Shown here: in pieces, positions 1,463 through 34,369 of the stretch
Position numbering within the stretch: position 1 is the stretch's first letter
How the letters are laid out: every line of letters begins with the position of its first letter
Assembly (NCBI GenBank): GCA_003650365.1
Contig: QMPA01000004.1
Location: forward strand, 1-39,603
Reading direction: 5' to 3'
Length of the DNA: 39,603 nucleotides
From: Bacteroidota bacterium
GTDB lineage: Bacteria; Bacteroidota; Bacteroidia; Bacteroidales; F082
Translations under genes and position numbers: made by a program
Notes under the pieces: model-generated
The model's input: only the letters and a program-made list of their open reading frames with translations
Told to the model about the DNA's origin: nothing
Database searches by the model: none

Positions 1463-3424
1463 TTACTTAACAAACCTCTTCACCCGGATATTGTCACCTT
1501 CAGTTACCTTTATGAGATAAACACCTTTTGAAAGCCCTGATACATCAAGATGGATGTGCTTGTTGCCGTTGTTTGTAAACAGCATCTCTTTCCCTGAAAG
1601 ATCGTAAATTCGAATTTCACGTGATGTGTTATCAGCTTCTGAAAAATAAACATTCAGTGTATTTTCAACAGGGTTTGGTCCAATACTGAAAAATGTAGGA
1701 GAGGTCATTTCGTCAACAACAACAGTAAGATTAATCACTTTTTCCATTGTCCAATTGTCGGGGTCAACAGTAACATCTATCACATTTTTACCTGTGAATA
1801 CCGTGAAGTGATTCATGTTTTCTGTTTGTTCAAACTGCACAATAGTATCTGTTCCGTCATCAAAATGAAGCTGGTAATCCATCAGCATTTTAAAAAATGG
1901 TGTCGAAGATGCCGAACCGCTTTGGGTTGAAACCAGGTGAAAGTTTCCTCCTGTCATATAGTAAGAAAGGTCGTATTTTGGATAACCTTCACCGTAATAC
2001 CATTGGTCGAAAAAAGTTTCGAAATCCATTCCGGTCACTTCTTCGGCAGTATTTCTAAAGTCATCTCCTGTTGCTGTACTGTCGGTAAAATCGGTTTGGA
2101 AAGTTCCCATCACATCAAAGAAAAGATCGTCATCCTGAATCTCATGGCGCAAGATGTGAACAATAGATGCACCTTTGTTGTAAGAAAGCCTTCCATCAAA
2201 AATACGCCATTCGTTACCGGGATAAATTTCATCTTCAGGAATATAAATACTACCTGTTGGCGAGGACATGGCACTGTTTTGTTTGTCAACAATAAATCCT
2301 TCAGCGCTTTCCCATCCATTGATAAATTCTTCAACAAGAAAATTTGAATAGGTGGCAAAACCTTCGTTGATCCAAATATCGCTCCAGGTGGCACAGGTAA
2401 CGTTATCGCCAAACCACATATGTCCCAATTCGTGGGCTACCAGGCCAAACCAAAAACCACCGAGAGTAGTGTTGGTCTGGTGTTCCATTCCACCACCCAG
2501 TTCCACAAGTGTTTGACCGTATTTTTCTTCCCAAAAGGGATAAAGAGTATACAAATCTGATAATATTTCAACCATTTCTGGTGTTCTGTCAATGCTATTC
2601 TGGTAGTTTTCGAGGCATCCGGGGCTGTCGTAAACATAGTTTTCAATTAAAATAGAATCGCCTTCCATTTCTTCAGGATGGGCATAAAGATTGTACTGCT
2701 GGTATTCGGAAACGGCAAATGAAATTAAGTAATAAGCAATGGGATAAGCTGATTTCCATTCGTACCTTTTTTTGTCGCCAACAGTTACAGTACTGGTTAA
2801 TATACCTTGCGAAGTGGCCATGTTTGCCGAATCGGTCGTAAGAAAAACCCAAACCGAGTCGGCTTTGTCTTCCAGGTCTTGTTTTACTGGGAACCAATCT
2901 TTGGCGGCAAAAGGTTCTGACAACGTCCATGTTACATCTTGGTTCCAGGCATTTGCATGTGCTGTTGATACTCCTGAGAAAAATCCCCCACTTGGTGGTG
3001 CACCATGGTAATAGATTTGTGCAGTAAAAGTCGTACCAGCATCAATTGCATTAACAGGAACAAGTACATTATCCCCGTCCCGGGTCCAACTCGTGTATTC
3101 TACACCCTCAACATAAATCTGGTCGATAGTTTGTTCGGCAATCAGTTCAAAAGCAAATGTGTCAAGAACAACAACTGCTTCTGCATCAATGCTTACATTA
3201 CCACTAATATAGGTCGATGTATTTGTAACTTCAATGTCTATCAAATAAAAACTAACATCGTAATCATCAAGGTATTCGCTTTGCCAGTCGTAAATATGTG
3301 CTAAAATATCTTTATCGAAGTGCTTTGCATGGGAGCATGTGCCTTCAAGATCGTGGTATTCATTTTGTTGACCAATAACATTGATCGAAATTATGAGAAT
3401 AATAAATGTTAAAATACGTTTCAT
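1463..3424 (-). CDS. Secreted M1-family zinc aminopeptidase with T9SS sorting domain
   Basis: Predicted extracellular metallo-aminopeptidase removing N-terminal residues from peptides. The 653-residue product starts with a signal peptide (MKRILTFIILIISINVIGQQ), has an N-terminal beta-rich domain typical of M1 enzymes, then the substrate-anchoring exopeptidase motif as GGGMEHQ (310-316, in place of GAMEN) and the zinc site H331-E332-L-G-H335 with E354 in the NEGFATY segment, exactly the HExxH-18-E spacing of the family. The C-terminal catalytic helical domain is short. The last ~75 residues (from GPNPVENTLNVYF to VYLIKVTEGDNIRVKRFVK) are a type A T9SS sorting domain, so the enzyme should cross the outer membrane and be anchored or released there. 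The ATG at 3424 puts the signal peptide at the very start. All catalytic residues are present. Confidence 0.93.
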   Translation of the reverse strand: MKRILTFIILIISINVIGQQNEYHDLEGTCSHAKHFDKDILAHIYDWQSEYLDDYDVSFYLIDIEVTNTSTYISGNVSIDAEAVVVLDTFAFELIAEQTIDQIYVEGVEYTSWTRDGDNVLVPVNAIDAGTTFTAQIYYHGAPPSGGFFSGVSTAHANAWNQDVTWTLSEPFAAKDWFPVKQDLEDKADSVWVFLTTDSANMATSQGILTSTVTVGDKKRYEWKSAYPIAYYLISFAVSEYQQYNLYAHPEEMEGDSILIENYVYDSPGCLENYQNSIDRTPEMVEILSDLYTLYPFWEEKYGQTLVELGGGMEHQTNTTLGGFWFGLVAHELGHMWFGDNVTCATWSDIWINEGFATYSNFLVEEFINGWESAEGFIVDKQNSAMSSPTGSIYIPEDEIYPGNEWRIFDGRLSYNKGASIVHILRHEIQDDDLFFDVMGTFQTDFTDSTATGDDFRNTAEEVTGMDFETFFDQWYYGEGYPKYDLSYYMTGGNFHLVSTQSGSASSTPFFKMLMDYQLHFDDGTDTIVQFEQTENMNHFTVFTGKNVIDVTVDPDNWTMEKVINLTVVVDEMTSPTFFSIGPNPVENTLNVYFSEADNTSREIRIYDLSGKEMLFTNNGNKHIHLDVSGLSKGVYLIKVTEGDNIRVKRFVK

Positions 3425-14330: not shown

Positions 14331-15818
14331 ATGGCAATAAATCCAATAAAAAAACTAGCAGGTGATACCGTTATTTACGGTTTGGGGACAATGGTGCCAC
14401 GGCTGTTGAATTATTTGTTGGTTCCTTTTTATACAATCGTTGTTTTTAACCAGAGCCAATACGGCCAAATCACTAGTCTTTACGCCTATCTTGCTGTGTT
14501 ATTGGTTATCCTAACTTTTGGTATGGAAACGGGCTTTTTTCGTTATGCCAATCTAACCAAACAACCACTTAAAATATTCAATCTCGCTTCAACAGTTGTT
14601 TTCATTTTATCTGTTCTTTTCCTGTTCTTGTCCGTTCTGTTTATTGATGATATAGTGAGTACACTTGGCTATTCGGATAGTAAAATCAGTGTTTTATTGG
14701 TAATACTTATTGTTGTACTGGATGCTTTTACGGCCATTCCTTTTGCCTATTTACGTTTGAAAGAAAAAGCAAAACGGTTTTCAATTATTCGAATAGCTAC
14801 CGTTGTTGTGAATATTGTGTTAAACCTAACCTTCCTTGTTCTTATTCCAAAGTATTTTGGGGAATTCGCCAGCGAGATTCCGTTATACCAGGGCAACAGC
14901 CTGATTGTATTTGTATTTATTTCAAACGTGGCTTCTTCTTCCCTGGCATTTTTATTACTTTGGCCCGAGTGGCGGAATTTTAAAATCAGTCTTGACAAAG
15001 TATTGCTCGCTAAGCTGCTCAACTACAGTTACCCGATTTTAATCATTGGAATCGCCGGGATTATCAATGAAGTTGCCGATAAAATTTTACTGAAGTATTT
15101 CCTTCCCGATCCGGCAACCGCCGATGCTCAAATCGGAATTTATGGTGCCAGTTACAAACTGGCCATTTTAATGATGCTTTTTATACAGATGTTCAGGTAT
15201 GCTGCCGAACCCTTCTTTTTTGCTGAATCAGATAAAAAAAATTCAAGGCAAACTTACAGTAGGGTAATGACCTATTTTGTGATTTTTACCTGGTTCATTT
15301 TTCTGGGAGTAAATCTTTATATTGATGTTTTTAAATATTTTATTGGTGAAAAATTCTGGGCTGGTTTGGCCGTTGTTCCCATTGTTCTTGCTGCTAAACT
15401 ATTTTTGGGTGTATTCTATAATTTATCGGTTTGGTACAAATTAACCAACAAAACAATTTACGGTGCAGCTATCGCCCTGATTGGCGTAGCCATTACAATT
15501 GGGTTAAATATCATCTTCATCCCACGCTATGGATTTATGGCGTCAGCCTGGGCAAATTTTGTTTGTTACTTCACCGTTATGTTCGTTTCGTTTATTTGGG
15601 GAAGAAAAGTGTTTAAAGTCAATTATAATATCAAAAAATTAATGGCTTATTCAATACTTGCAGTTGGCTTGTTCTTTCTTTCAGGCCTTTTAGCTCATAA
15701 TGATTTAGGCTTACGCTTGCTGATTAACACAGGTCTGATTTTAGTTTACATAGCAGCTGTGTTCTTCTTTGAAAGAAGATACTTTGTCAGCAGAAATTTG
15801 AATAGCTTAAGTGGCTGA
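14331..15818 (+). CDS. Wzx/MATE-like polysaccharide flippase family membrane protein
   Basis: Predicted 495-residue integral membrane protein with 12-14 hydrophobic helices spread over the whole length. The N-terminus (KKLAGDTVIYGLGTMVPRLLNYLLVPFYT) and the block YGQITSLYAYLAVLLVILTFGMETGFFRYAN fit the polysaccharide biosynthesis (PST/Wzx or MurJ-like) branch of the MOP exporter superfamily, whose members flip lipid-linked sugars or related lipids across the inner membrane. The ATG is 10 bases after the stop of the sensor kinase gene, so the two are probably co-transcribed. No glycosyltransferase cluster surrounds it, so an O-antigen or capsule role cannot be inferred from context; a lone conserved copy like this may serve a housekeeping lipid-linked substrate. 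Confidence 0.88.
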   Translation: MAINPIKKLAGDTVIYGLGTMVPRLLNYLLVPFYTIVVFNQSQYGQITSLYAYLAVLLVILTFGMETGFFRYANLTKQPLKIFNLASTVVFILSVLFLFLSVLFIDDIVSTLGYSDSKISVLLVILIVVLDAFTAIPFAYLRLKEKAKRFSIIRIATVVVNIVLNLTFLVLIPKYFGEFASEIPLYQGNSLIVFVFISNVASSSLAFLLLWPEWRNFKISLDKVLLAKLLNYSYPILIIGIAGIINEVADKILLKYFLPDPATADAQIGIYGASYKLAILMMLFIQMFRYAAEPFFFAESDKKNSRQTYSRVMTYFVIFTWFIFLGVNLYIDVFKYFIGEKFWAGLAVVPIVLAAKLFLGVFYNLSVWYKLTNKTIYGAAIALIGVAITIGLNIIFIPRYGFMASAWANFVCYFTVMFVSFIWGRKVFKVNYNIKKLMAYSILAVGLFFLSGLLAHNDLGLRLLINTGLILVYIAAVFFFERRYFVSRNLNSLSG

Positions 15819-15857: not shown

Positions 15858-15931
15858 CGAAAATTTCAAAGTGGTTTCTTTTGCCACAAAAAAAACCACT
15901 TGGCAGTTGTTTTGCCGAAAAGATTAACAAT

Positions 15932-16366
15932 ATGAAAGTAAGAATTGTCAATAAATCGAAACACGATTTACCAAAATACGAAACACAGGCTTCGGCAGGA
16001 ATGGATCTGCGGGCCAATTTGGAAGTAGCAGTGCTATTAAAACCATTGCAGCGGACATTGGTGCCAACCGGCTTATTTATGGAACTTCCGCTTGGCTACG
16101 AAGCGCAAGTGAGACCCAGAAGCGGACTGGCTGCAAAATTTGGAATTACAGTGTTAAATACACCGGGTACGATAGATTCAGATTATCGTGGCGAAGTGAA
16201 AGTGATTCTTGTAAACCTTTCAGACACTGACTTTGAAATTAAAGATGGAGAACGGATTGCGCAAATGATTATTTCGGCACATGTTCAAGCCGAGTGGGAA
16301 GCTGTTGAAGAACTGAATAAAACAAGTCGTGGAGCAGGAGGTTTTGGACATACAGGCCATCAATAG
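15932..16366 (+). CDS. dut: Deoxyuridine 5'-triphosphate nucleotidohydrolase (dUTPase)
   Basis: Hydrolyses dUTP to dUMP and pyrophosphate, which keeps uracil out of DNA and supplies the dTMP precursor; acts as a trimer. All five family motifs are present in order: [43 protein letters not shown] and [10 protein letters not shown]. The frame is open further upstream to a TTG at 15881, but those 17 residues are unlike any dUTPase; the ATG at 15932 gives MKVRIVNKS and a normal 144-residue protein, so I use it. It heads a run of four plus-strand genes with short gaps (31 bases to the TPR gene). High confidence. Confidence 0.97.
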
Positions 16367-16397: not shown

Positions 16398-18128
16398 ATG
16401 AAAAAAATACTCATCATATTTTTGGTTTTGTTTTTTGGAATTGTCATTTCCGGAATGGCGCAAAAAAGGTCTTCCAAAAAGAAACAAGCCGAAAAAGAGC
16501 TGACAGAAAAAGAACACTTTGCACAGGCCGACCTCTTTATGAAGGCTATGAGCGAAAAGTCGTTGAATAACCTTGAAAAGGCAAATGAGCTTTTAGGAAA
16601 AGCCCTGGAAATAAATGCAAAGGATGCTGCTACACATTATGAAAAAGCAAAAATTCTACAAGCATTGGGCAGAAAAGATCAGGCCCTGGAACATGCCTCG
16701 TTGGCGATTACTTTTGATGATACGAATAAGTGGTATAAAGTACTGTATGCCAACCTTTCAAAATCTAACGAAGCCTACGAAACCTATGTTGCAGTTTATG
16801 AAGAATTAGTGGTAGAATATCCCGGAGATCTTAACTTTTTAAACGAATTGGCTTTTGCTTATTATTATACAGGAGATTATAAAAATGCAATAATTACATT
16901 CGATAAAATTGAAGAAATTGTTGGGGTAAATGAAGGGCTTACTACACAAAAAGTTCAACTTTATAGCAGGACATCACAGCCCGAAAAAGCAGTACAGGAA
17001 TACGAAAATTTGATTGAAAGCAATCCTGACGAACCAAGATATTATGCTTTGCTTGCTGAGTTTTGTACCAAGAATAATATGGAGGATAAAGCAATTTGGG
17101 CCTATGAAAAAATTGTAGAACTCAATCCTGACGATCCATATGTACACATTTCTTTGGCTGAATTTTACAAGAACAAAGGTAACGACCAAAAAGCATTTGA
17201 AGAATTGAAAATGGGCATGGCCAATAAAAAACTCGGCCTAAAAACCAAGATCAATATTTTGTTTGGCTACTATTCTGGTCAGTTAACAGATGAGCAAAGA
17301 AAGCAGGCACTGGAACTTTCGGAAATACTTAAACAAACACATCCTGATGACATATTGGGCGAATCATTTTATGCAACTATGCTTTATGAAAATAAAGAGT
17401 ATGAAGGTGCCAGGACGATTTTTAGGGAAATCCTGAATGAAGATACCGGAAATTATCCTTTCTGGGAACAGTTGTTATTTTGCGATTTATACCTTGAAGA
17501 TAATGTGCAATTGACCAAGGATTCGGAAGATGCCATCGACCTGTTTCCATCTTACCCATTGCCCTACTTTTTTGCTGGAATCGGGAATTTTCAATTAAAA
17601 GATTTTGTTAAAGCACAAGCTTTTCTTGAGTCGGGAAAAGAATTTGTGGTGAACAACAATGCTTTGCTCGAGCAGTTTTATTCAACATTGGGCGATACGT
17701 ACAACGAACTTGAAAACTATGAAGCATCCTATGCTGCCTACGATAAGGTATTGAGTCTTAACCCTGTGAATGCCACAGTATTGAATAATTATTCCTATTA
17801 TCTTTCGTTAAGGTCAGAGCAACTTGATAAGGCTGAAAAGATGGCTGCAAAGTCTGTAGAGCTTGATCCGTATAACAGCAATAACCTGGATACTTATGCC
17901 TGGGTTTTGTTTAAAAGGGAAAAATATGAAGAGGCTCTCGAATGGATAAAAAAAGCATTGGGCAATGGTGGCGCGGACAGCGGTGTTGTACTTGAACACT
18001 ATGGCGATATTTTATACAAAATGGGTGAAACAGAAAAAGCCATCGATTTCTGGACCAGGGCTAAAAAGCAAAAAGATTATTCCAAATTGCTCGATAAAAA
18101 ACTAAAAGACGGAAAACTATATGAATAA
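16398..18128 (+). CDS. Exported tetratricopeptide-repeat protein
   Basis: A 576-residue protein with a signal peptide (MKKILIIFLVLFFGIVISGMAQ), then a basic stretch (RSSKKKQ) and helical repeats of ~34 residues over almost the whole length; typical repeat ends such as ALEINAKDAATHYEKAKI, IVELNPDDPYVHISLAEF, VLSLNPVNATVLNNYSYYL and SVELDPYNSNNLDTYAWVL fit TPR units. No enzymatic motif is visible, so it probably serves as a periplasmic or outer-membrane-associated scaffold. It overlaps the DUF4292 lipoprotein gene by eight bases, indicating translational coupling, and an EnvC-like gene follows. This order (dut, TPR, DUF4292, EnvC-like) is, as I recall, widely kept in Bacteroidota, suggesting a shared envelope function. 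Confidence 0.88.
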   Translation: MKKILIIFLVLFFGIVISGMAQKRSSKKKQAEKELTEKEHFAQADLFMKAMSEKSLNNLEKANELLGKALEINAKDAATHYEKAKILQALGRKDQALEHASLAITFDDTNKWYKVLYANLSKSNEAYETYVAVYEELVVEYPGDLNFLNELAFAYYYTGDYKNAIITFDKIEEIVGVNEGLTTQKVQLYSRTSQPEKAVQEYENLIESNPDEPRYYALLAEFCTKNNMEDKAIWAYEKIVELNPDDPYVHISLAEFYKNKGNDQKAFEELKMGMANKKLGLKTKINILFGYYSGQLTDEQRKQALELSEILKQTHPDDILGESFYATMLYENKEYEGARTIFREILNEDTGNYPFWEQLLFCDLYLEDNVQLTKDSEDAIDLFPSYPLPYFFAGIGNFQLKDFVKAQAFLESGKEFVVNNNALLEQFYSTLGDTYNELENYEASYAAYDKVLSLNPVNATVLNNYSYYLSLRSEQLDKAEKMAAKSVELDPYNSNNLDTYAWVLFKREKYEEALEWIKKALGNGGADSGVVLEHYGDILYKMGETEKAIDFWTRAKKQKDYSKLLDKKLKDGKLYE

Positions 18129-18945
18129 AGGACTTAAGATATTATTTCTTTTTGCGCTGCCAGCGACTTTGATTTTTACATCGTCTTGTAAATCCACGCG
18201 CTCCACCCTTAAAAAACCACTGAAAGAGCAAGGTTTCGATTTCCTGTATTCGCGAATGCTCGAAAACCAAATTAGTTTTGATTACCTGAATGCGAAGTTT
18301 AATATCGTTTATCAAAAGGGAAAAAAGAAAACAGATTTACGCGGGCAGTTGCGTATTCGGAAAGATAGTATTATTTGGGTATCCTTATCGCCTGCATTGG
18401 GTATTGAAGCAGCCAGAATATCGCTGTCTAACGATTCAGTTAAATTCATCAACCGCTTAAACAAAACCTACCTTACCGGCGAATATAAAATACTCGACAG
18501 TTTATTACGAACGTCTATAGATTACTCCATTGTCGAATCGATGATAATTGGAAATGACCTTACACAATATGATGTTTCTAAATTTAAAGCCTCTGTTGAT
18601 GGCGGATTGTATAGGATAACTATACAGAAGAGAACAAAGATTAGAAAGTATATGCGAAAAGGCGAAATCGAATCAAAAGTTCTGGTACAAAACATTTGGC
18701 TTGATCCGGAGAATTATAAAATTCGGAAAATTGAAATTAGAGAACTTGGCGATGACAATAAAAAGCTTCAGGTATTTTACAATAAGTATCAAGCAGTTGA
18801 AAACCAGTTATTTCCTTCGGAGGTAAGAATTGAGATTATTGCGGAAAATAAAATAACGATTGATATTAAATTTGGCAAAACGGAATTAAATGTACCGCTA
18901 AAGTTCCCATTTAGGATTTCGAAAAAATATGAGCGGATTTATTAA
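18121..18945 (+). CDS. DUF4292 lipoprotein, possibly LolA/LolB-like
   Basis: A 274-residue lipoprotein: the signal peptide ends in a lipobox with Cys23 (FTSSC-KSTRS), and no Asp follows the Cys. The body is predicted to be almost entirely beta strands. The block LNAKFNIVYQKGKKKTDLRGQLRIRKDSIIWVSLSP, followed by EAARISLSNDSVKFINRLNKTYLTG, has the strand pattern of lipoprotein-carrier folds (LolA/LolB), and I believe DUF4292 belongs to that clan. If so, it may receive or insert lipoproteins or another lipid-like ligand at the outer membrane, but this is inference. Its start overlaps the TPR gene by eight bases, and the EnvC-like gene starts 19 bases after its stop. Family call confident; function unknown. 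Confidence 0.88.
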   Translation: MNKGLKILFLFALPATLIFTSSCKSTRSTLKKPLKEQGFDFLYSRMLENQISFDYLNAKFNIVYQKGKKKTDLRGQLRIRKDSIIWVSLSPALGIEAARISLSNDSVKFINRLNKTYLTGEYKILDSLLRTSIDYSIVESMIIGNDLTQYDVSKFKASVDGGLYRITIQKRTKIRKYMRKGEIESKVLVQNIWLDPENYKIRKIEIRELGDDNKKLQVFYNKYQAVENQLFPSEVRIEIIAENKITIDIKFGKTELNVPLKFPFRISKKYERIY

Positions 18946-18964
18946 AGCCCTATAAATTCAAAAA

Positions 18965-20173
18965 ATGATTAGCCGTAAACATTGTACTTCCATTGTTCTC
19001 TTTTTTTTGCTCTTCCTCTCTGCCTTCCCCCTATTCAGTCAGGATCAACAAAAGCTCGAGAAAGAAAGAAAGAAAATTGAGGCTGACATCAAGTATACAA
19101 ATGACCTTCTTGAAGAAACCAAAAAAAGCAAGAACACAACGGTTTATAAACTCCGGCTCATAGGTAAAAGAATAGACCAGCGCAATAATTTAATCACAAC
19201 ACTTAGGAAAGAGATTGATGTAATTAAACGTAAAATCAGGAATACCGAAGACGGTATTGACGGTTTAAACGAGGAACTTTCAGCATTAAAGAGTGACTAT
19301 GCAAAAGTTGCTTATTTTGCGTACAAGCACAAGACATCTTACAATAAACTCATTTTTTTATTTTCTGCCGAAGACCTGAATCAAGCTTATCAGCGAATGC
19401 GTTATTTGGATCAAATTGGTGCATTTATTCGCAATGAAGCCAAACTAATCAGGGAAAAGGAAAGTATAAAAGAAGAAGAACTCAAAGTATTGAAGCGGCA
19501 GAAATCAGAGAAAAACAACCTTTTGGAGGCTCAAAATATTCAGTTGCTAAAGTTGGAACAGGAAGAATCGGAAAAGAAAAAGGTCAAATCAAAGCTTTCA
19601 GGAAAAGAAAAGCAATTGCGGGCTTCTTTGCGTGCTCAGGAAAAAGAAGCGAAAAAACTTAAGAAAAAAATTGAGGACATTATCGCCAGGGAACTTGCAC
19701 TTACAAAACCCAAAAGCAAGGGGGCATCTTACGCCCTTACTCCTGAAGAAAAACTACTCTCCAGTTCATTTGCAGCAAACAAAGGGAAACTGCCCTGGCC
19801 TACTGTAAGCGGGCTGGTTTCGGAAACATTTGGTGTTCACCGTCACCCTGTTTTAAAGAATGTAAAAACCAAGAACAATGGACTGAATATTGTTACGTCA
19901 AAGGGAAGCGAAGTACGCACTGTTTTCTCGGGAGAAGTAGTAAGCGTTGTTACCATTACCACAACCAATAAAGCCGTAATTGTTAAGCATGGCGATTACT
20001 TTTCTGTTTACTCCAATATGGATGCCATTTATGTAAAGAAAGGTGACCGCCTGGAAACCAAAGCAAACATAGGCCGTGTACACACTGATACAAAGGGAAA
20101 AACAGAACTTCATTTTGAAATATGGCTGGGGAAGGTTTTGCTTAATCCATCTCTTTGGATATTAAAACGCTAG
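18965..20173 (+). CDS. EnvC-like protein with degenerate LytM (M23) domain
   Basis: A 402-residue exported protein: signal peptide (to about residue 26, FPLFSQ), a long charged coiled coil (~27-250), and a C-terminal LytM/M23 domain (~285-402). This is the layout of EnvC, which activates cell-wall amidases at division rather than cutting peptidoglycan itself. The zinc ligands are mostly gone: the H...D pair is N304 and N308 (NNGLN), the histidine after YS is N351, and of the final HxH only H383 remains (ELHFE). Thus it should be non-catalytic. It closes the plus-strand run after the TPR and DUF4292 genes and ends 16 bases from the converging S8 protease gene. No amidase partner gene is in the window. 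Confidence 0.92.
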   Translation: MISRKHCTSIVLFFLLFLSAFPLFSQDQQKLEKERKKIEADIKYTNDLLEETKKSKNTTVYKLRLIGKRIDQRNNLITTLRKEIDVIKRKIRNTEDGIDGLNEELSALKSDYAKVAYFAYKHKTSYNKLIFLFSAEDLNQAYQRMRYLDQIGAFIRNEAKLIREKESIKEEELKVLKRQKSEKNNLLEAQNIQLLKLEQEESEKKKVKSKLSGKEKQLRASLRAQEKEAKKLKKKIEDIIARELALTKPKSKGASYALTPEEKLLSSSFAANKGKLPWPTVSGLVSETFGVHRHPVLKNVKTKNNGLNIVTSKGSEVRTVFSGEVVSVVTITTTNKAVIVKHGDYFSVYSNMDAIYVKKGDRLETKANIGRVHTDTKGKTELHFEIWLGKVLLNPSLWILKR

Positions 20174-20189: not shown

Positions 20190-22166
20190 TTACTTTTTCA
20201 CCAATTTTCCGGTTTTCAGCATTTGACCATCAACCGAGATTTTATAGAAATAAATGCCACTGGATGATTGGACATTGTCCCATGAAAGCTGTTGAATACC
20301 GGGTGAAATGCCTTTATTTTTTGTAAAAATGATTGTCCCCTTTTGGTCGAAGATCTCTAACAAAACAGTAGCTTTTGTTGTTGTTTCAATTTCGAAAGAG
20401 GCTTTGTCTGTAAAAGGATTTGGAAATACACTAACCGAATTTGTATTTAAAACAATTTCTTCAGTTCCCACATTGGGGTCAACCAGCATTTCAACAAAAA
20501 TGGTCTTGCTGAAAATCCGATTTCCTTCAATGATGACTGCACAGTTATAGAAACCACTATCCATTCCTTCTGTACTAAAATACAAGATAAGCGGTTCTTC
20601 TTCATTTTCTGCTAGTATTCCGCCATCATGGCTCAATGAAATCCAGTCGGGTTGCTCAGGGATGTTAACAGAATAATGCAAGTCCTGAGCACCAAGGTTT
20701 GATAATAAAACAGTGTCTTGTCCGCTGCTGTTTGGCTCAAAAGCAACTTTCACCGAATCTTTGTCAGCCTGCAGAATCGGGGCATTCAGCATCAAATTAA
20801 TAGATTTGAAAACATTCAAGCGGCCACCGCTAACAGTTATTCCAAGAAGGCTGTTTAACTTCTTTACACCATCCATAATAAAGCCCTTAATGAGCAATGC
20901 GCCTTCGGCAGGTTGGTTTTTGTAATTGATCATAAATGTAGAATCAGCTGCTGATAAAATCAATGCAACTGCACCAGTAACATGTGGAGTAGCCATTGAA
21001 GTTCCTGTACTGTTACCATAACCATTGTTCACCCTGCACGACACGACTATAGTCCCTGGCGCTCCCAAATCGATGGTTGTGTCACCGTAAGCTGCCGACA
21101 TATAAAGCTGATCGCTTTTGGTTGTATTGGTAACAGAAATCATATAATCTGTAGTAAAAGCGGTAGGAACATCGCCAACACTGTCAATATCCCAAGGTCG
21201 GTTTGCCGTTGCTCCCATACTCAGTATTCCCAAATGCCCCAACGAATCGTACATGGCTTCCCAAATAGGGAAATTATCAGGATTCCCTTTGTCAACGCCG
21301 AAGGAACAATTATCAGCCACAACAAAAGCCCCTTTTTCGCCATTGGTTTGGTCGTAAGTTTCACGCACAGTATAAACATAAGAAAGTGCTTCTACAACAA
21401 TTGATTCTGTAGTGGAGGTGGAACCTGCAATCGGTAATATTTTAACATTCCAGTTTACGCCACTTACTCCTTTACCATTGTTGCCAATAGCTCCGGCAAT
21501 ACCACCAACGTGCACACCATGATTGTGTTGCGGAATAGTGCCTGAGTGATTGTAAGCATTCCACCCATCGTAATCGTCAATATAACCATTACCATCGTCA
21601 TCATTTCCGTTGTTGGGAACTTCATGGGTGTTTTTCCAAAAGTTCATGTCTTCGTGGTTGAGGTCGGAACCTCCATCAATAATGGCAATAACTATTTCAT
21701 CGTCCAAAGCTGTTTGGCCGCCTGTTGTGATGTCCCAGGCTTCATCGGCATCAATATCAGCATCTGGCAGGCCTCCATTTTGACCAGTGTTTTTTAATGC
21801 CCATTGGTCGCCAATACGGGGGTCATTGGGAAGGGTATCGTTGGTGTTGCGCAACTCGACATAATGGTTGTTTTGAACATTAACAACGGATTTTTCTAAT
21901 TGTAAAGCATTGAGAAAATTAGAATGACTTGTTTTTGATGAGTTAAAACGCAAAAGAAAAATATTGAATCTTTCAGAAACTGTTTGAACTGACTGCAGAT
22001 TGTATTGTTTAAAATGCTTCTCAAGAATATGTACTTCGGAGGCACTGTTGAGTTGAACTAACACTTCTCCATCAATATAATTGGTGTTGGTTTGTTTTTG
22101 TCCGTAAGTTATAATGCTTACGCTGAGGATTAAAACAATAGTTGCAAAGAGGAATTTAATATTCAT
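20190..22166 (-). CDS. Secreted S8 subtilisin-like protease with T9SS sorting domain
   Basis: Predicted extracellular serine endopeptidase of 658 residues. Signal peptide (to about residue 22), an inhibitor-like propeptide (~28-105), and the catalytic triad Asp164 (AIIDGGSDLNHEDM), His216 (HNHGVHVGGIAG) and Ser390 (STGTSMATPHVTG), with oxyanion Asn286 (DNCSFG). Between Asp and His lies an acidic, metal-binding-like loop (NNGNDDDGNGYIDD), common in Bacteroidota subtilases. A beta-sandwich region (~475-570) precedes the type A sorting domain (VFPNPFTDKASFEIE to the terminal KLVKK). The ATG at 22166 gives a clean signal peptide. It is on the same strand as the C25 peptidase gene but is separated from it by a terminator hairpin, so it is probably transcribed alone. 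Confidence 0.94.
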   Translation of the reverse strand: MNIKFLFATIVLILSVSIITYGQKQTNTNYIDGEVLVQLNSASEVHILEKHFKQYNLQSVQTVSERFNIFLLRFNSSKTSHSNFLNALQLEKSVVNVQNNHYVELRNTNDTLPNDPRIGDQWALKNTGQNGGLPDADIDADEAWDITTGGQTALDDEIVIAIIDGGSDLNHEDMNFWKNTHEVPNNGNDDDGNGYIDDYDGWNAYNHSGTIPQHNHGVHVGGIAGAIGNNGKGVSGVNWNVKILPIAGSTSTTESIVVEALSYVYTVRETYDQTNGEKGAFVVADNCSFGVDKGNPDNFPIWEAMYDSLGHLGILSMGATANRPWDIDSVGDVPTAFTTDYMISVTNTTKSDQLYMSAAYGDTTIDLGAPGTIVVSCRVNNGYGNSTGTSMATPHVTGAVALILSAADSTFMINYKNQPAEGALLIKGFIMDGVKKLNSLLGITVSGGRLNVFKSINLMLNAPILQADKDSVKVAFEPNSSGQDTVLLSNLGAQDLHYSVNIPEQPDWISLSHDGGILAENEEEPLILYFSTEGMDSGFYNCAVIIEGNRIFSKTIFVEMLVDPNVGTEEIVLNTNSVSVFPNPFTDKASFEIETTTKATVLLEIFDQKGTIIFTKNKGISPGIQQLSWDNVQSSSGIYFYKISVDGQMLKTGKLVKK

Positions 22167-22203
22167 ACTACTTGTTTTTCAAATGATTCTTGGCGAAAAT
22201 AAG

Positions 22204-22240
22204 TAAAAAAACCGGCTCAGTAATTAGACTGAACCAGTTT
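22204..22240 (-). terminator. Rho-independent terminator after the C25 peptidase gene
   Basis: Arms 22209-22220 and 22229-22240 form a 12-bp stem with an 8-base loop, followed in minus-strand RNA by a run of seven U. The two non-complementary positions are C-A mismatches on the plus strand but G-U wobble pairs in minus-strand RNA, so the hairpin is only perfect in the direction of the C25 gene. That is good evidence of selection for termination of that transcript. Confidence 0.8.
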
Positions 22241-22258
22241 CAGGTTTTTCAAATCTAA

Positions 22259-22286
22259 GCGGTTTCAGGCTTTTGTGTAAAACCGC
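22259..22286. repeat. Inverted repeat between the C25 stop and its terminator
   Basis: GCGGTTT (22259-22265) and AAACCGC (22280-22286) are perfect complements around a 14-base loop, in the 3' untranslated region of the C25 gene. It could be a second, weaker 3' hairpin protecting the mRNA end. Confidence 0.4.
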
Positions 22287-22310
22287 GGTGAATTAGCACT
22301 TTCTCTTTTG

Positions 22311-25300
22311 TTATTGAATTAGTACTTTCCTGCTGTATCGCTTTCCGTTTTGTTTAACAACCAGAATATAAACCCCTGACTGGAGTTCAGGATTACTGAA
22401 TACCTGTGTAAAACCGTTGGATGAATTGTTATTTTCCAGGCTCATCACTTCAACACCAAGGTAGTTAAACAGCTTTATTTGCACAGGTGATTTTTCCAGT
22501 GTTTTAATGGTCAGACTAAAGATTCCATTGTTGGGATTGGGAGCAACCATCATCATTAATTCTTTATCTGGTGTGGTAAAAGCACCAACGGTATTGTCAA
22601 TAAAAATAATGAGCGAATCGGAAAACGAACCCATTCCACAATCATTAACAGCACTTACTTTTAAGCTCGCTTCACCAAGATATTCATCATTCCAAAAAAC
22701 CGTAGCCATATTGTCATTGGCAATAATCGATCCGGATTCTTCGGGCCATAATTCCCATACGTAGTCCAAAACTCCATCTACTTCCTGTACAGTATAATCG
22801 GTTTCGGTAACATTGTAAACATCAACATAATCAGGACCTACCGGTGTTTCAGGGGCTTCAGCTGTTTGCTTGAAAGTTAAGGTCATATCATCAGAATATG
22901 CATCGCCTTCAACATCAATAATGTGTAGAGTAAGTATGATGCTTTTGTTTTCGTAATCATTGGGCCCGGGTGTATAAACCGGTGTAAAAAGACTGTCATT
23001 ACTAAATTCGCCATCACCAGAGGTAGTCCAGAAAACAGTATTGTAATTGGTTGCCGTACCCTTGCAAAAGAAACCAGAACCTTCGCAGCTTTCCTCATCG
23101 GGGCCTGCGAATAATGTAGTAACAAGCATGGTGGGTAATTCAATGTAATCAAGCCAGGCCTTGTCAGCACCTCCATCACCTGAGAAATCTTTTTGATAAA
23201 CCCATTCAAAAGTGTGGAACCCTTGCTGGACAGGGAAACTTTCCTGCCGCCATCCCTGGCTGGTGCCCGACCAACTTCCACGCAAAGTGCCGTCAACATA
23301 AAATTTGAGTTTGTCAAAATCTATTTCAGAAGATACTTTTCTGTAAAACTTAATGTTGTCGTTACCCATTACTTTATAGGTAATTTTAAGCTTTGTGGTT
23401 TGGTTGCTGTTAATTTCTCCTGACACGGCATGGTAGCTTCCTTCGAAAGGATATTCGTATGTAATTTCCCAGGGAAGATTTCCCCCAAATTGCCAGTTGT
23501 GTTTACTGAAGTCACCGGTTTCCCAGTCTTCAAGAAAAATACCAATTTTGGAATAATAGACTTCATTTTCTGAATACCCTGTTGTTGAGGCGTTAAAACG
23601 CATTTCAGCAATAATTGCTTCAGGAACATTCTCGGCAACTGTTACGTTGAATCGTGGATGGGCAGCACCCAGAAACCCAAGGACCGGTATTATTTGATCC
23701 TCGGAGTTTACAGTGATATATTGATTCCATGCAACCATTGAACAAACAACATCCTTTACAATACAGTGTCCTTTGTTGGAGACACTTACAACAAGGTCGG
23801 CTGTTTCACCCGGATCGAGACGACCATTGTTATTTCCAAATTCCGAATCATCAACCACCATTTCTTCGGGGGTAATCTTCGGCGCGTTTACTACCATAAA
23901 AAATTTACTGTTCCAGGTAGAGTCTTGATCATCACAGGCATGTACATCAAACTGTAATTGGTGTTGGTCGGGGACACCATCATGAATATGTAATTTATAA
24001 GCATAATCCCGATTTACATTTTCCCGCGTTTTAATGGTGTCGTAGTTTTCTGTTGGGTCAATAAAAGTAACATAGTCATTATTGGTTGAAAGACTTACTT
24101 CCACGTTAATGGCATCTTTGTTACCTAGGTTTTTAATGACCATACTGATTAAAATATCCTCATCAAACTCTACTTTGTTGTTGTCGTTACCAAGGCTGTC
24201 GCTCACGCTATGTTCATCGTAAAGACAGTAAGCACCTTCTGGAGGAATTACTTCAATGCTGTTTTCATAGCGATAATAATTTTGTCCGGTAATAACAATA
24301 TCAACAAATATACCGGGGTCTTGTGATGGGATGGCAATGTCGAGGGGAGCACCTGTTCCTGTTCCTGTACCAATAATATCATCGCCAATAGTGAGACAAA
24401 TAAATGAACCAGGATTAGAAGTTACTGTAAAATAATCAAGTCCACTAAGTAAAACCTCATCGTGATCGACCGTTAAATATTGTGGAACTTCAAAATACAG
24501 ATTTGTAAAAGCATCACCGTGGTGATGGAAAAGATGGTAGGTAACCTCTTTGTTATTGCTGTTGTATGGCCAGCTCGATTGTTCAAGAAAGTATTTTCCG
24601 GCAGCATTTCCAAAAGCCGGTAAAACGCCACGCGATTCGGGAGTGGTTCCGTATTCGGGCATAAAATCAGGCCAAAGATTATCATACATTCCCCAAACAT
24701 AAGTATCGTTTACAAACGAATAAGATACTTCAGTAGCGGCAATTATACCGAGTGCGCCGAATTCAGAACGGTGAAATTTTTCGGCAAAACACTCGCCACC
24801 AATATTAAATTTTCCTGTAAGGCAATTGATTGAAAAAACAAAAGTGAGATCCGTATTGTACAATCCGTTAATATCGCTGCTACTATAAGCTGGTTCGCCC
24901 CAACCAGTGGTGCTACCGTGATCGCGGTGTTGAAGTAAAAAGGCACCACTGTTAATATCGTCGTTAATGCGTGTTGCATTGCCACCCCAATCGCTTAGGT
25001 AACCGGGAGTATCAGGAATGTACCCCAGTCCTTCATCCCCAAATTCGTCAATAATGGTTTGTGTATTTGTTGCAGTTGACCAGGGGCCACTGCTGTTACC
25101 ACTGTAAATAGCGTTTTCACGCACGGGAGATTTATCGTGTTCGTTTTCAAAATACCCGGCAATAATTTCTGAACACATTTGAAACCATCGTTCGGTTTGC
25201 CAACCCATGGCTGTAATAGGGTTGGCATAGTAATCAGGATTTGTCGGGGGATTTCGTTCGTAGTTAATGGCCTTCATTACCATTCTTTCCACCATGTTGG

Positions 25301-26381
25301 CATCGGGGGCAGTCATTCGTGCAAAAACAATGTCCGGTAAATGATCGTTATCCACATCAGCATAAATATTATCAGAAGCGCAGTAATTGTTGTAAATAGG
25401 TGAAATGATTGTATTTCCCGAACTACCGAAATCACCAATTAATAATACTGCAGCCGGTGGTGTTTCCCAATTGTTGTAGGCGTCATTCACATAAGCTTCG
25501 ATTGCGGCAGTAGTATTTCCGCCAATTTCTGCGGTTGTTACCACATTGGTTGTAATACCCTGTTTAATCCTGAATTGACGAATGGTATCAGCCCATGCTT
25601 GAAAATCTTCATCATCGGGAGTAATAATAATATATTCGTATTCTTCATCAGATGAACGGTTTTCGGGCTTTTTACTGATCGGGGCAATGGAAGCTTCATT
25701 AAGAACGGCATCGCGAATAATGGGCTCCCACCAACGGCTTCTCAATCGGTCTTCACCAAAATGTCCGTTGCCGCCTTCAAAAACAATTTCTAATTCAATA
25801 TCGCGGTTAATAATGAGTTCCTTTGTAACCGGATTGTATTGGAAAGGGCTGATGGACAGAAGTACCACATCCATTCCCCGTATTTTTTTCAGTTCCGAAA
25901 GTTGAATCATTTTTTCCGGATACAACGCATTTGTGTTGTAAATAGATTCGTTTTTCTGGTATTGCAAAGGCCCAATATCGGTGTCTAAAGGAATTCGGGG
26001 AGATGGGGCTATCAATATATTTTCTGATTTTTCAGTACGGTATTTCCGTAAGTTTACTTTTACGGTTGCCCCTTGTGGTACAGCAATATACTTGCTATAT
26101 GCAGGAAGATTGGGTGCGCCTTCCTGTCCTTGCAAAAGCACTCCTGGCATGGCAATAGTTTTCATTTGTTCGCCATCCACAGTAGTTTCAACAATTGAAT
26201 AGTTGTTTACTGAGAAACTGATTTCAACACCTTGTTGGCTTTGGTTTGTTAGTGATGCTCCCTGTTTTCCCCAACTGTCAGTAAACGACATTTTTTGGCT
26301 TTGGGAATACAAAACTTGTACAGTAAAAAATGCAAATACTAACCATACTATTTGCAGCTTAATTCTTGATTTTGGTATCAT
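22311..26381 (-). CDS. Gingipain-like C25 cysteine peptidase with T9SS sorting domain
   Basis: Predicted secreted cysteine endopeptidase (1356 residues from ATG 26381; a TTG 60 bases earlier would put 20 polar residues before the signal peptide and is rejected). Order: signal peptide (IVWLVFAFFTVQVLYSQ), a C25-type propeptide (~30-230, ending in a block like ELIINRDIELEIVFEGG), the catalytic domain (~255-660) with His488 in HGSTTGWGEPAYS and Cys520 in FSINCLTGKFN, matching the gingipain HGSETAW and Cys motifs; Ig-like regions; a jelly-roll or adhesin-like domain (from WETGDFSKHNWQFGG to KAWLDYIELP); another beta domain; and a type A sorting domain ending VYILVVKQNGKRYSRKVLIQ. The gingipain-like motifs and cargo-type tail suggest secreted cargo rather than the C25 sortase PorU; no porV neighbour is present. 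Regulated from a divergent region shared with lipA. Confidence 0.9.
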   Translation of the reverse strand: MIPKSRIKLQIVWLVFAFFTVQVLYSQSQKMSFTDSWGKQGASLTNQSQQGVEISFSVNNYSIVETTVDGEQMKTIAMPGVLLQGQEGAPNLPAYSKYIAVPQGATVKVNLRKYRTEKSENILIAPSPRIPLDTDIGPLQYQKNESIYNTNALYPEKMIQLSELKKIRGMDVVLLSISPFQYNPVTKELIINRDIELEIVFEGGNGHFGEDRLRSRWWEPIIRDAVLNEASIAPISKKPENRSSDEEYEYIIITPDDEDFQAWADTIRQFRIKQGITTNVVTTAEIGGNTTAAIEAYVNDAYNNWETPPAAVLLIGDFGSSGNTIISPIYNNYCASDNIYADVDNDHLPDIVFARMTAPDANMVERMVMKAINYERNPPTNPDYYANPITAMGWQTERWFQMCSEIIAGYFENEHDKSPVRENAIYSGNSSGPWSTATNTQTIIDEFGDEGLGYIPDTPGYLSDWGGNATRINDDINSGAFLLQHRDHGSTTGWGEPAYSSSDINGLYNTDLTFVFSINCLTGKFNIGGECFAEKFHRSEFGALGIIAATEVSYSFVNDTYVWGMYDNLWPDFMPEYGTTPESRGVLPAFGNAAGKYFLEQSSWPYNSNNKEVTYHLFHHHGDAFTNLYFEVPQYLTVDHDEVLLSGLDYFTVTSNPGSFICLTIGDDIIGTGTGTGAPLDIAIPSQDPGIFVDIVITGQNYYRYENSIEVIPPEGAYCLYDEHSVSDSLGNDNNKVEFDEDILISMVIKNLGNKDAINVEVSLSTNNDYVTFIDPTENYDTIKTRENVNRDYAYKLHIHDGVPDQHQLQFDVHACDDQDSTWNSKFFMVVNAPKITPEEMVVDDSEFGNNNGRLDPGETADLVVSVSNKGHCIVKDVVCSMVAWNQYITVNSEDQIIPVLGFLGAAHPRFNVTVAENVPEAIIAEMRFNASTTGYSENEVYYSKIGIFLEDWETGDFSKHNWQFGGNLPWEITYEYPFEGSYHAVSGEINSNQTTKLKITYKVMGNDNIKFYRKVSSEIDFDKLKFYVDGTLRGSWSGTSQGWRQESFPVQQGFHTFEWVYQKDFSGDGGADKAWLDYIELPTMLVTTLFAGPDEESCEGSGFFCKGTATNYNTVFWTTSGDGEFSNDSLFTPVYTPGPNDYENKSIILTLHIIDVEGDAYSDDMTLTFKQTAEAPETPVGPDYVDVYNVTETDYTVQEVDGVLDYVWELWPEESGSIIANDNMATVFWNDEYLGEASLKVSAVNDCGMGSFSDSLIIFIDNTVGAFTTPDKELMMMVAPNPNNGIFSLTIKTLEKSPVQIKLFNYLGVEVMSLENNNSSNGFTQVFSNPELQSGVYILVVKQNGKRYSRKVLIQ

Positions 26382-26403
26382 GGTTTTGGGTTTTGTTTGC
26401 TTT

Positions 26404-26434
26404 TTAACACATCTAGATAAAGCCGATGTGTTAA
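26404..26434 (-). repeat. Perfect 10-bp inverted repeat at the predicted mRNA 5' end of the C25 gene
   Basis: TTAACACATC (26404-26413) and GATGTGTTAA (26425-26434) are exact reverse complements with an 11-base loop. Relative to the predicted -7 element (26439-26446, minus strand), the right arm would be the first ten or so transcribed bases, so the mRNA would begin with a hairpin about 25 bases before the start codon. It may stabilise the transcript or be an operator. Confidence 0.6.
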
Positions 26435-26438
26435 TTTG

Positions 26439-26446
26439 CAAAATTA
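26439..26446 (-). promoter_or_regulatory. -7 element for the C25 peptidase gene
   Basis: Read on the minus strand the bases are TAATTTTG, a full match to TAnnTTTG, 58 bases upstream of the ATG at 26381. No good -33 element is seen at the usual distance, so an activator or a weak -33 would be needed. Confidence 0.45.
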
Positions 26447-31867: not shown

Positions 31868-34210
31868 TTAACGAATCATCAGTATTTTCGTAACCAATTT
31901 ATCTGTCCCATCATTGGTTGTAGAGAAAACAAGGTAAACGCCGGTTGCTGCCCTGCGTCCGTCAAAACTGTATCCATCCCAAATGGCCTGGCTTCCTTCT
32001 GATTTTGTTTCGTAAACAAGGTTTCCGTAGGAGTCGGTAATTTTTACATTGGAGTTGTCGGCCAATCCTTTAATGGCAATCGGTCCTGAATAGTTTTCTC
32101 TAACAGGATTGGGGTAAGCATAAACTTCGGAGCCGGCTGAAGGTGGAGGTGTTGCCGTACCACGAAAAGAAACAATTCCTTTGGCAGTCCCAATAAAAAC
32201 TTCGCCATTGTCTATAATAGCAATGCTGGTAATATTATTTGAAAGCAAGGGACTGTTTTCTGCTGTGAAATGATGCTTTTCTGTTAATCCGTCATCCGAC
32301 AGCAGGAAAACACCAGCACGGTCGGTACCAATCCATTTTTGGTTTGCCCCGTCAATAGTGATGGCTGTCACTGCTTCAGTCTCAAGAAGGATATCGGCAA
32401 GACCCGAGCCATCGTTACGGGGAACAAGAATTTGCTGTGCATCGAAATTGCCTTCCCCACCAAAAATACGATCGGGTGAATAAAATACAGCAACGCCTTT
32501 GTCTGTACCTACCCAAACTTCCCCATCGTGGTCAACGGCAAACGATAGCACACCACTTCCGGGGATGCCGCCATTTCCAGAAGCAGAATTCAATACCCGT
32601 ACTCTATCATCCGTAGGATCGTCAATAGTGTTGTTGTCATTGTATACAATAACGTAACCATCAGTACGTTTAATCATCCATTTCTGGTTGTAATTATCAA
32701 CCATTAGGTTACCAATATCAATTCCACTTAGCGAACCACCCAGATAAAACGAGCGCCACTGGCCATCATTTTTCATAACCGAAAGCATATTGGTAGCACC
32801 GGTATTGGCAACCCAAAGATTGTGTTGCTTATCGAAATCGAGGCCACTGATGTTCATTAGCCTGGGATCAGATATCCAGCGTTCGAGACTACTGTTCGAT
32901 TCGTTGTAAATAAGGCTCAACTCATTGTCAACAAATTTAAAAATGCCTTCTTGCCATGTGCCTATATAAGCAATGTTGGGATTGGCTGGATCAACCTTTA
33001 CACTTACCATATCGGTTACTGTATCAAAGGCAGCTGTGCTTTCATCATCGTGTGTACTCCAACTTTTGTCAACAAATGAAAAAACGCCATCGTGCATATT
33101 TAGTTTCGACCAATTGGACTGCCGCCCTCCCGGAGCAACCCAAACATTGCCGCCACTAGCATCCAGTGCGTACACATTTTTTGTTCCGGGACCATTGGGT
33201 TTAATAAATTCGCCATTGAAAGTATTCCAGTTCTTAATCAGGCCTTTGTTGTTGTCGCCAATCCAGAATACATCAGTATTCTTACGGTCAACTGCGAGGG
33301 GCTCAAATCCTTCGCCGGCTATTTGCCAGATATTTGTTATTTGGATTCCTTCATTATCAAAAACTTTGATGTTGGATCGGCCAACTAATAGCAATTCGCC
33401 ATTATTGGACGATAATTGAAAATGCCGGCTTTTGTTTCCCTCTTCAAAATAGTTCCAGGCTTGACCGTCAAAAACAAACAAAGTATCGCCCTCCCAACCA
33501 TTGTTGATGTAATTGCAATAAACTTTTCCTCCAAAACTTTCGACGAGGTTGTAGGGGAGGTCGGGATGAAAGATTGTAAGGTCTTTGTGCCACTGGTTAA
33601 AATCGGCCAGGTGCGGAGCATCAACATCTGCATAATAAATACCACTTTCGGTAGCTGCAAAAAAAGAGGTGTCATTAAACGTCATGTCTAATACATCAAT
33701 AGCATCGCCGTTTGGCCCGATGTAATAGGTGTCGGCAATTTCTTCTTTTTCCATATCCAACACAACAATTCCAAATCCACACGATAGGTATGCCAGGTTT
33801 TCTTTGAAGAGAATGTTGTTGATGGTTTTTTTACCCAGAATATCCTTGTTTTTAATATCTGAAATATTAATAATTGTTCCGTCCTCATGTACAATATCTA
33901 TATTGGTATTTGAGTAGGCAATGAGCAGTGATTTAATGGGCTGATTATACCCAATTTTACTGATACCCACATCGCTAAGGCCTTTTACTTTATCGAAACG
34001 AACCATGCTGTTATCGCCTGTGTTGTAGGTAAACATACTATAAGGGCTGGCTGCAAAAACCAGGTCTCCGGCAATAGCAACATCAATTATTTGGTCGTAA
34101 GGAAGGTGGCTTCTCCATTGGCCAATGGCAATGTCTTGTGCCGAAAGCGGTTGAGTAAATGAGAAGCCTAAAGCAAAAAGCAGAAAAATAAATATGTATT
34201 TGTTAAACAT
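31868..34210 (-). CDS. porZ: Type IX secretion system protein PorZ
   Basis: Component of the outer-surface attachment complex (PorU-PorV-PorQ-PorZ) that processes T9SS cargo and joins it to its lipopolysaccharide anchor. The 780-residue product has a signal peptide (FALGFSFTQPLSAQ), then IGQWRSHLPYDQIIDVAIAG and repeated beta-propeller blades (LSDVGISKIGYN, LAYLSCGFGIVVLDMEKEEI, IWIGDN-type and VWVGTDKGVAVF-type motifs of two-component-regulator propellers), and a C-terminal sorting-type domain (YAYPNPVRENYSGPIAIKG to VTKILMIR). The N-terminal block and the length match PorZ rather than other propeller proteins. It is not next to other T9SS genes here, which is usual since these are scattered. 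It supports a working T9SS for the M1, S8, C25 and nuclease cargo of the window. Confidence 0.88.
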   Translation of the reverse strand: MFNKYIFIFLLFALGFSFTQPLSAQDIAIGQWRSHLPYDQIIDVAIAGDLVFAASPYSMFTYNTGDNSMVRFDKVKGLSDVGISKIGYNQPIKSLLIAYSNTNIDIVHEDGTIINISDIKNKDILGKKTINNILFKENLAYLSCGFGIVVLDMEKEEIADTYYIGPNGDAIDVLDMTFNDTSFFAATESGIYYADVDAPHLADFNQWHKDLTIFHPDLPYNLVESFGGKVYCNYINNGWEGDTLFVFDGQAWNYFEEGNKSRHFQLSSNNGELLLVGRSNIKVFDNEGIQITNIWQIAGEGFEPLAVDRKNTDVFWIGDNNKGLIKNWNTFNGEFIKPNGPGTKNVYALDASGGNVWVAPGGRQSNWSKLNMHDGVFSFVDKSWSTHDDESTAAFDTVTDMVSVKVDPANPNIAYIGTWQEGIFKFVDNELSLIYNESNSSLERWISDPRLMNISGLDFDKQHNLWVANTGATNMLSVMKNDGQWRSFYLGGSLSGIDIGNLMVDNYNQKWMIKRTDGYVIVYNDNNTIDDPTDDRVRVLNSASGNGGIPGSGVLSFAVDHDGEVWVGTDKGVAVFYSPDRIFGGEGNFDAQQILVPRNDGSGLADILLETEAVTAITIDGANQKWIGTDRAGVFLLSDDGLTEKHHFTAENSPLLSNNITSIAIIDNGEVFIGTAKGIVSFRGTATPPPSAGSEVYAYPNPVRENYSGPIAIKGLADNSNVKITDSYGNLVYETKSEGSQAIWDGYSFDGRRAATGVYLVFSTTNDGTDKLVTKILMIR

Positions 34211-34316
34211 TCGGAATCGTTTTTATTTCTTAATTAACTGCAAATTAAGTAAAATATTGCGGGTATTTGAAATGTAGCTTACCTGCGTATAATTTTTGAT
34301 AAAATGGACAACATGC

Positions 34317-34350
34317 AAAAAAAAGGCCAGCCACAATCAGGGCCGGCCTT
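34317..34350 (-). terminator. Rho-independent terminator of the S46 peptidase gene
   Basis: AAGGCCAGCC (34323-34332) pairs with 34341-34350 across a short loop, and minus-strand RNA continues into a run of eight U. The single non-complementary position is an A-C mismatch on the plus strand but U-G in minus-strand RNA, so the hairpin is tuned for the S46 transcript, ending 20 bases after its stop codon. Confidence 0.88.
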
Positions 34351-34369
34351 AAATAATATTTTCAATAAT

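Follow-up and report, generated by a model that had tools for sequence, protein, structure and literature searches.

What holds together a lipoprotein receiver, a tetratricopeptide repeat (TPR) protein and a degenerate cell-wall peptidase in one compact run of genes? The question is raised by a 39,603-nucleotide stretch of DNA from a Bacteroidota bacterium (Bacteroidales, lineage F082; GenBank assembly GCA_003650365.1, contig QMPA01000004.1), which is referred to here as the window. Three adjacent genes on its forward strand encode a TPR protein, a DUF4292 lipoprotein and an EnvC-like protein. Each belongs in or near a known kind, and the new part, within the literature searched, is the fixed company of the three. 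The DUF4292 protein is LolB1, a family already published, and the operon probably co-produces LolB1, an FtsEX-type amidase activator and an LbcA-like adaptor that carry out separate, complementary jobs. No paper on such an operon was found in the open-licence literature searched by titles and the beginnings of abstracts, a search not aimed at LbcA in Bacteroidota.

All three open reading frames are intact: the TPR gene at 16398-18128 (+, 576 residues), lolB1 at 18121-18945 (+, 274 residues) and the EnvC-like gene at 18965-20173 (+, 402 residues). By the coordinates of the two frames, the end of the TPR gene and the start of lolB1 overlap by 8 bases (18121-18128, +), making translational coupling possible, and 19 bases (18946-18964) separate lolB1 from the EnvC-like gene. 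A preliminary description, made from the sequence alone, had given the same arrangement. The spacing suggests that the three genes share a transcript. Scans of the operon returned 16 promoter-like sites against 17.2 expected and nine terminator-like sites against 4.8 expected, with none of the latter between the genes. Pfam assigns TPR repeats to the first protein, DUF4292 to the second (E 6e-40) and Peptidase_M23 to the third (E 1.2e-15), and each translation begins with a hydrophobic stretch, as judged by eye.

The association extends well beyond the window. A DUF4292 match is present in 145 of 148 genomes of the phylum, and 120 of these loci were retrieved, a set that leaves out the window itself, 22 of the 30 loci of family f16 and the loci of genomes G070 and G144. 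The TPR gene lies directly upstream and the EnvC-like gene directly downstream of lolB1 at 84 of the 120 loci, representing 22 of 33 families, with a median gap of -4 bases at both junctions; gene starts were placed at the earliest start codon following a stop, so that strongly negative gaps do not represent true overlaps. The other loci comprise nine with the EnvC-like neighbour only, two with the TPR neighbour only (one of which, L137, depends on a weak 100-residue match) and 25 with neither. The family profiles used were built from the surveyed loci and may miss distant TPR proteins. Upstream of the TPR gene in the window, on the same strand, lie genes for a dUTPase (dut, 15881-16366) and a flippase (14331-15818), which recur near lolB1 at 21 and 20 of the 120 loci, respectively (same strand, flanks of up to 6 kb). 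Set against these counts, 84 full trios of 120 place the arrangement far from chance.

A second survey, anchored on the EnvC-like gene in named genomes by a single EnvC peptide pattern, drew on the best 80 of at least 588 confirmed places, of which 77 loci remained after three without room were set aside. DUF4292 lies directly upstream at 74 of the 77, preceded by a TPR gene at 66, and neither is present at three; three of the 77 loci offer too little sequence for a TPR gene, and contig ends truncate three of the counted TPR genes (L210, L215 and L229). RefSeq annotation gives the order dut, TPR, DUF4292 and 'DD-metalloendopeptidase' in Parabacteroides distasonis and Bacteroides finegoldii.

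The product of the middle gene matches the NCBIfam equivalog NF053559 (LolB1_Flavo) at 194.3 bits against a cut-off of 50, over model positions 5-244 of 244. An AlphaFold2 model built from 65 sequences, with a predicted local distance difference test score (pLDDT) of 91.3, shows the open beta-barrel LolA/LolB fold. Foldseek places the Porphyromonas gingivalis LolB structure 9tpm first (template-modelling scores 0.71/0.82), followed mostly by LolA/LolB chains, and VIA-align superposes the model on 9tpm with Z 24.7 and a root-mean-square deviation (rmsd) of 2.1 over 220 residues, and on Escherichia coli LolB (1iwm) with Z 16.0 and rmsd 2.9 over 167 residues. The DUF4292 family profile also matches 9tpm (E 6.7e-13). 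The lipid anchor site is the lipobox cysteine Cys23 in the motif SSC (18187-18189, +), a cysteine in 65 of 65 aligned rows. A protruding loop, PALGIEA (residues 91-97; 18391-18411, +), lies between predicted strands 3 and 4 (84-90 and 98-103) and carries Leu93, the counterpart by fold position of E. coli LolB Leu68; its column is occupied by L, M or F in 53 of the 65 aligned sequences. The same loop leucine is reported as Leu74 in Flavobacterium johnsoniae LolB1, between strands 3 and 4 as in E. coli (PMC11885536), and as Leu77 in P. gingivalis LolB (PMC13103446).

The name LolB1 was given to this family in 2025 from work on F. johnsoniae, where the protein is needed for gliding and type IX secretion (PMC11885536), and the P. 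gingivalis structure followed in 2026 (PMC13103446). The window protein is like LolB1 of F. johnsoniae (Fjoh_1066) and LolB-PG of P. gingivalis (PGN_0994) in its LolB1 model match, 9tpm fold, lipobox and strand 3-4 loop leucine, whereas its identity to 9tpm in structural alignments is 14-16%. With E. coli LolB it shares the fold, the lipoprotein nature and the protruding hydrophobic loop, but it is longer and falls below the gathering score of the Pfam LolB model PF03550 (12.4 against 23.7 bits); the E. coli and F. johnsoniae proteins cannot replace one another (PMC11885536). Two LolA matches occur in the window's own genome. LolB1 is predicted here, with support in F. johnsoniae, to take lipoproteins from LolA and insert them into the outer membrane. 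The preliminary description had recognised the LolA/LolB-like pattern correctly, while its premise that Bacteroidota lack an obvious classical LolB is rejected by the NF053559 match and by both published studies (PMC11885536, PMC13103446).

LolB1 also varies in form and in setting. Short versions of 174-192 residues occur in Bacteroides finegoldii (L271:6108-6686) and at L201, L235, L193 and L203, with gene order unchanged; they are without one internal block of 75-90 residues, at about residues 159-248 of the window protein. Parabacteroides has the long form. In families f21, f23, f26, f31 and f32, lolB1 is directly followed by lptD (LptD_2) at 11 of 11 retrieved loci, with gaps of -4 to 35 bases (L093, L120, L124-L126, L132, L137, L139, L143, L147 and L152; six confirmed by Pfam and 11 by profile), so that a lipoprotein receiver adjoins the lipopolysaccharide translocon.

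The TPR protein (16398-18128, +) is a candidate LbcA-like adaptor, exported by the look of its signal peptide and without a lipobox. Its likeness to LbcA lies in the C-terminal TPR region, about residues 388-571 (17559-18110, +), which matches the C-terminus of Pseudomonas aeruginosa LbcA (PA4667). Positions 17-200 of a profile built on the last 205 residues (A8) align with PA4667 343-520 of 540, with 78.6 bits in a single stretch and 93 in all, making PA4667 the best natural protein among the PDB matches listed. The next natural match, OGT, reaches 77 bits in total, and the best single stretches of engineered TPR proteins, among those printed, reach 46 bits. Features common to both C-termini include LN..Y.L..R, LD..W..Y and H.G(D/E).L. 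A lipobox-like motif, sought with a simple pattern, occurs in 26 of 87 relatives; because the window protein has none, it is classed as LbcA-like and not as a member of LbcA. A tblastn search of plasmids with the TPR protein returned four Bacteroidales records and none from Proteobacteria; three were inspected, one of them without gene annotation.

LbcA recruits the protease CtpA, and the lbcA operon also contains lolB and ipk (PMC6050968). Among the clients of CtpA-LbcA, four are predicted to hydrolyse wall cross-links, and two of these four are of the LytM/M23 type (PMC6050968, PMC8764530). LbcA and the window protein are both large TPR proteins with matching C-termini, encoded upstream of lolB in one operon. 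They differ in that LbcA is an outer-membrane lipoprotein with a CtpA protease partner, and in the gene after lolB, which is ipk in P. aeruginosa and the EnvC-like gene here. The order of a TPR gene followed by lolB therefore recurs in another phylum, on the basis of one species. By analogy, the window protein may have an S41 protease partner; three S41 matches occur in its genome, all on other contigs.

The third gene (18965-20173, +) encodes a protein with a signal peptide, as judged by eye, a long coiled coil and a degenerate LytM domain. The AlphaFold2 model predicts long helices at residues 24-247 (19034-19705, +), and the LytM/M23 domain spans residues 265-401 (19757-20167, +). The model has a pLDDT of 84.7 and a predicted template-modelling score of 0.56, and with an rmsd of 25 when the full chain is superposed, the placement of its helices relative to the LytM domain is unreliable. 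Its top structural matches are EnvC in the Vibrio cholerae FtsE/FtsX/EnvC complex (Z 19.9) and FtsX-bound EnvC of E. coli, and the LytM domain matches that of AmiB-bound EnvC with Z 18.4 over 128 residues. Four positions were scored by the M23 peptidase motifs HxxxD and HxH. Three of the four are changed (N304, N308 and E381) and H383 is kept; at least three are retained in none of 94 and none of 55 aligned sequences, two sets that both include the window protein. The description 'catalytically dead', which the preliminary description had used, is a fair reading since three of the four residues are changed. An active M23 peptidase was considered for this gene and rejected because the motif residues are degenerate in every aligned relative; RefSeq labels the Parabacteroides and Bacteroides homologues 'peptidoglycan DD-metalloendopeptidase'.

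By sequence and model, the protein is an EnvC-type degenerate LytM protein. It shares with EnvC of the FtsEX-EnvC-amidase pathway the long helices and degenerate LytM domain, and its genome holds FtsX and an amidase; it differs in an identity of 19-25% in structural alignments, in falling below the NCBIfam cut-off for EnvC and in having its gene beside lolB1. The fold and the partner genes suggest that it may act as an FtsEX-type amidase activator. In a congener (G002; L004 and L005), the EnvC-like gene is split over two frames with internal stops, either an assembly error or a real break.

Partner genes were sought in 42 hand-picked genomes, namely 41 of the 148 phylum genomes and G001. Amidase_3 is present in all 42 and FtsX_ECD in 37, of which 36 exceed the Pfam cut-off; the window's own genome has one match to each. 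In three of the genomes (G111, G045 and G025) no EnvC-like match is convincing at full length, and all three lack FtsX_ECD, a joint absence with a Fisher p of 8.7e-4 that concerns three genomes only and ignores shared descent. The other 39, counted as EnvC-bearing, are 14 with a match in the search for EnvC-like genes away from lolB1, 24 from the neighbourhood survey, and G001. The threshold for absence of the EnvC-like gene, below 125 bits, was set after the EnvC-like scan and before the FtsX_ECD scan. The match in G025 reaches 107 bits over 154-410 of 415, and counting this genome as EnvC-bearing changes the table to 2/2 against 3/40. The Amidase_3 gene of the window's genome (L157:2-3652, contig C26) adjoins an LptD-like gene back to back and precedes an MlaD gene.

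In the mechanism that we favour, LolB1 would receive outer-membrane lipoproteins from LolA and insert them into the outer membrane. The EnvC-like protein would serve as a LytM activator with no enzymatic activity of its own, held by FtsEX, that opens a presumably autoinhibited amidase and so allows the septal wall to be split. The TPR protein, as the LbcA C-terminal match and the lbcA-lolB gene order suggest, would be an LbcA-like periplasmic adaptor, which may gather an S41 (carboxy-terminal processing) protease or wall enzymes and in that way restrain cross-link hydrolases. Production from one operon could match the supply of new outer-membrane lipoproteins to wall opening during growth and division. 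The module proposed in the preliminary description thus stands in its LolB fold, degenerate LytM domain and gene linkage, with adjacency in most families sampled, and neither of the outcomes it had named as contrary, a model without a LolA/LolB-like fold or genes rarely found as neighbours, was observed. Its LolB-like receiver has already been published.

These findings offer several avenues. The case for kinship of LolB1 and LolB has so far been the fold, and the P. gingivalis study says that the usual proteobacterial neighbours of lolB are absent elsewhere (PMC13103446). In Pseudomonas, too, lolB stands behind a large TPR gene, and so the shared order lends the idea of common descent a positional argument that depends on neither sequence nor fold. 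Neither 'EnvC' nor 'tetratricopeptide' occurs in the texts of the two LolB papers (PMC11885536, PMC13103446). In Bacteroides and its relatives, the uncharacterised TPR genes and those annotated 'peptidoglycan DD-metalloendopeptidase' also gain testable roles, and the operon is a way to ask how outer-membrane lipoprotein supply is matched to cell-wall opening. A more tentative and rather doubtful extension is that the adaptor-LolB pair predates the Proteobacteria/Bacteroidota split and that Bacteroidota later captured EnvC, one operon then setting lipoprotein insertion, LbcA-type hydrolase degradation and the timing of the FtsEX-amidase system.

Several observations weigh against the favoured explanation. 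In whole families the EnvC-like gene has no link to lolB1, since the 25 loci with neither neighbour are all the retrieved loci of f14, f16, f21, f23, f26, f27, f30 and f31. None of ten genes neighbouring unlinked EnvC-like genes, scanned with Pfam, is FtsX, and FtsX_ECD was not detected in two of the 39 EnvC-bearing genomes (G066 and G107). The NCBIfam EnvC model NF008644 is not reached (44.8 bits against a cut-off of 270). For the TPR protein, engineered consensus repeats exceed LbcA in total score, and TPR solenoids resemble one another. The full-length phmmer search of PDB gave five sequences at 1e-8, of which only PA4667 aligned along most of its length (TPR 85-565 against PA4667 45-514, 41 bits), with no single stretch of this match passing 1e-8. 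The NCBIfam PrsT TPR model scores 156 bits, below its cut-off of 312, and the N-terminus has no lipobox, whereas LbcA is a lipoprotein. No S41 relative was found in 200 neighbourhoods searched with three S41 queries at E 1e-5, in flanks that reached 6 kb at most and were often shorter. Finally, deletion of P. gingivalis LolB left growth and the tested fimbriae unchanged (PMC13103446). Taken with the viability of an F. johnsoniae mutant without any LolA or LolB, whose surface lipoproteins are still on the surface (PMC11885536), this means that LolB1 is not obviously the device for the surface-lipoprotein load.

The separation of the genes in whole families bears on the view that these are housekeeping envelope genes kept together through co-expression or history, without functional coupling. 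Of the 26 genomes without the full link (those of the 25 loci, plus G130), 25 carry an EnvC-like gene at another place (E 1e-15), nearly full length in 21, and some of these unlinked matches contain internal stops. The persistence of the gene apart from lolB1 suits a purely shared transcript, as does the recurrence of the housekeeping neighbours dut and flippase upstream at part of the loci. Yet TPR and EnvC-like genes accompany lolB1 at 87 and 93 of the 120 loci, far above the counts for those two neighbours, and P. aeruginosa, too, has a TPR gene and lolB in one operon (PMC6050968). We consider this view unlikely.

The surroundings of the unlinked EnvC-like genes were inspected for other pairings. 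An EnvC-TPR pair was rejected, as the survey profiles found no TPR or DUF4292 gene within three genes on either side at the 20 loci retrieved from these 25 genomes, and an EnvC-FtsX pair was rejected on the ten Pfam-scanned neighbours. These ten comprise four aroA (EPSP synthase), three TonB_C, one VanZ-like and two unmatched genes, and aroA stands beside the EnvC-like gene in either orientation (L247, L262, L263 and L266).

Quite unlikely is a physical machine, in which the TPR protein would bind LolB1 together with the EnvC-like protein, so that lipoproteins are inserted where the wall is being opened. The tight association of the trio across many families is what such a machine might leave, TPR solenoids are generally binding scaffolds, and genes for subunits often have overlapping reading frames. 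However, the EnvC-like gene and lolB1 are apart in whole families, and four of the six loci of family f3 (L061, L070, L071 and L072) keep lolB1 and the EnvC-like gene with no TPR gene at the site, dut lying directly before lolB1. In F. johnsoniae, moreover, plasmid-borne lolB1 alone restores the cell shape of the lolB1 deletion mutant (PMC11885536).

That the EnvC-like protein regulates a different wall enzyme, such as an active M23 peptidase, instead of serving as an FtsEX-amidase activator is distinctly improbable: M23 matches at four further gene positions in the genome, the two EnvC-bearing genomes without FtsX_ECD and the M23 enzymes among P. aeruginosa LbcA clients (PMC8764530) speak for it, whereas the best folds are FtsX-bound EnvC and the AmiB-bound EnvC LytM domain, the amidase is universal in the 42 genomes, and EnvC-like and FtsX genes are absent together in three.

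Beyond the operon of LolB1, its putative adaptor and its putative amidase activator, the window holds genes linked to the type IX secretion system (T9SS). The gene downstream of the EnvC-like gene, on the opposite strand, encodes a subtilase with a T9SS tail. T9SS-linked genes flank the operon at 1463-3424, 20190-26441 and 31868-36580 of the window, and the set comprises an M1 peptidase and a subtilase, both with a sorting tail, a gingipain-like C25 peptidase, PorZ and an S46 peptidase.

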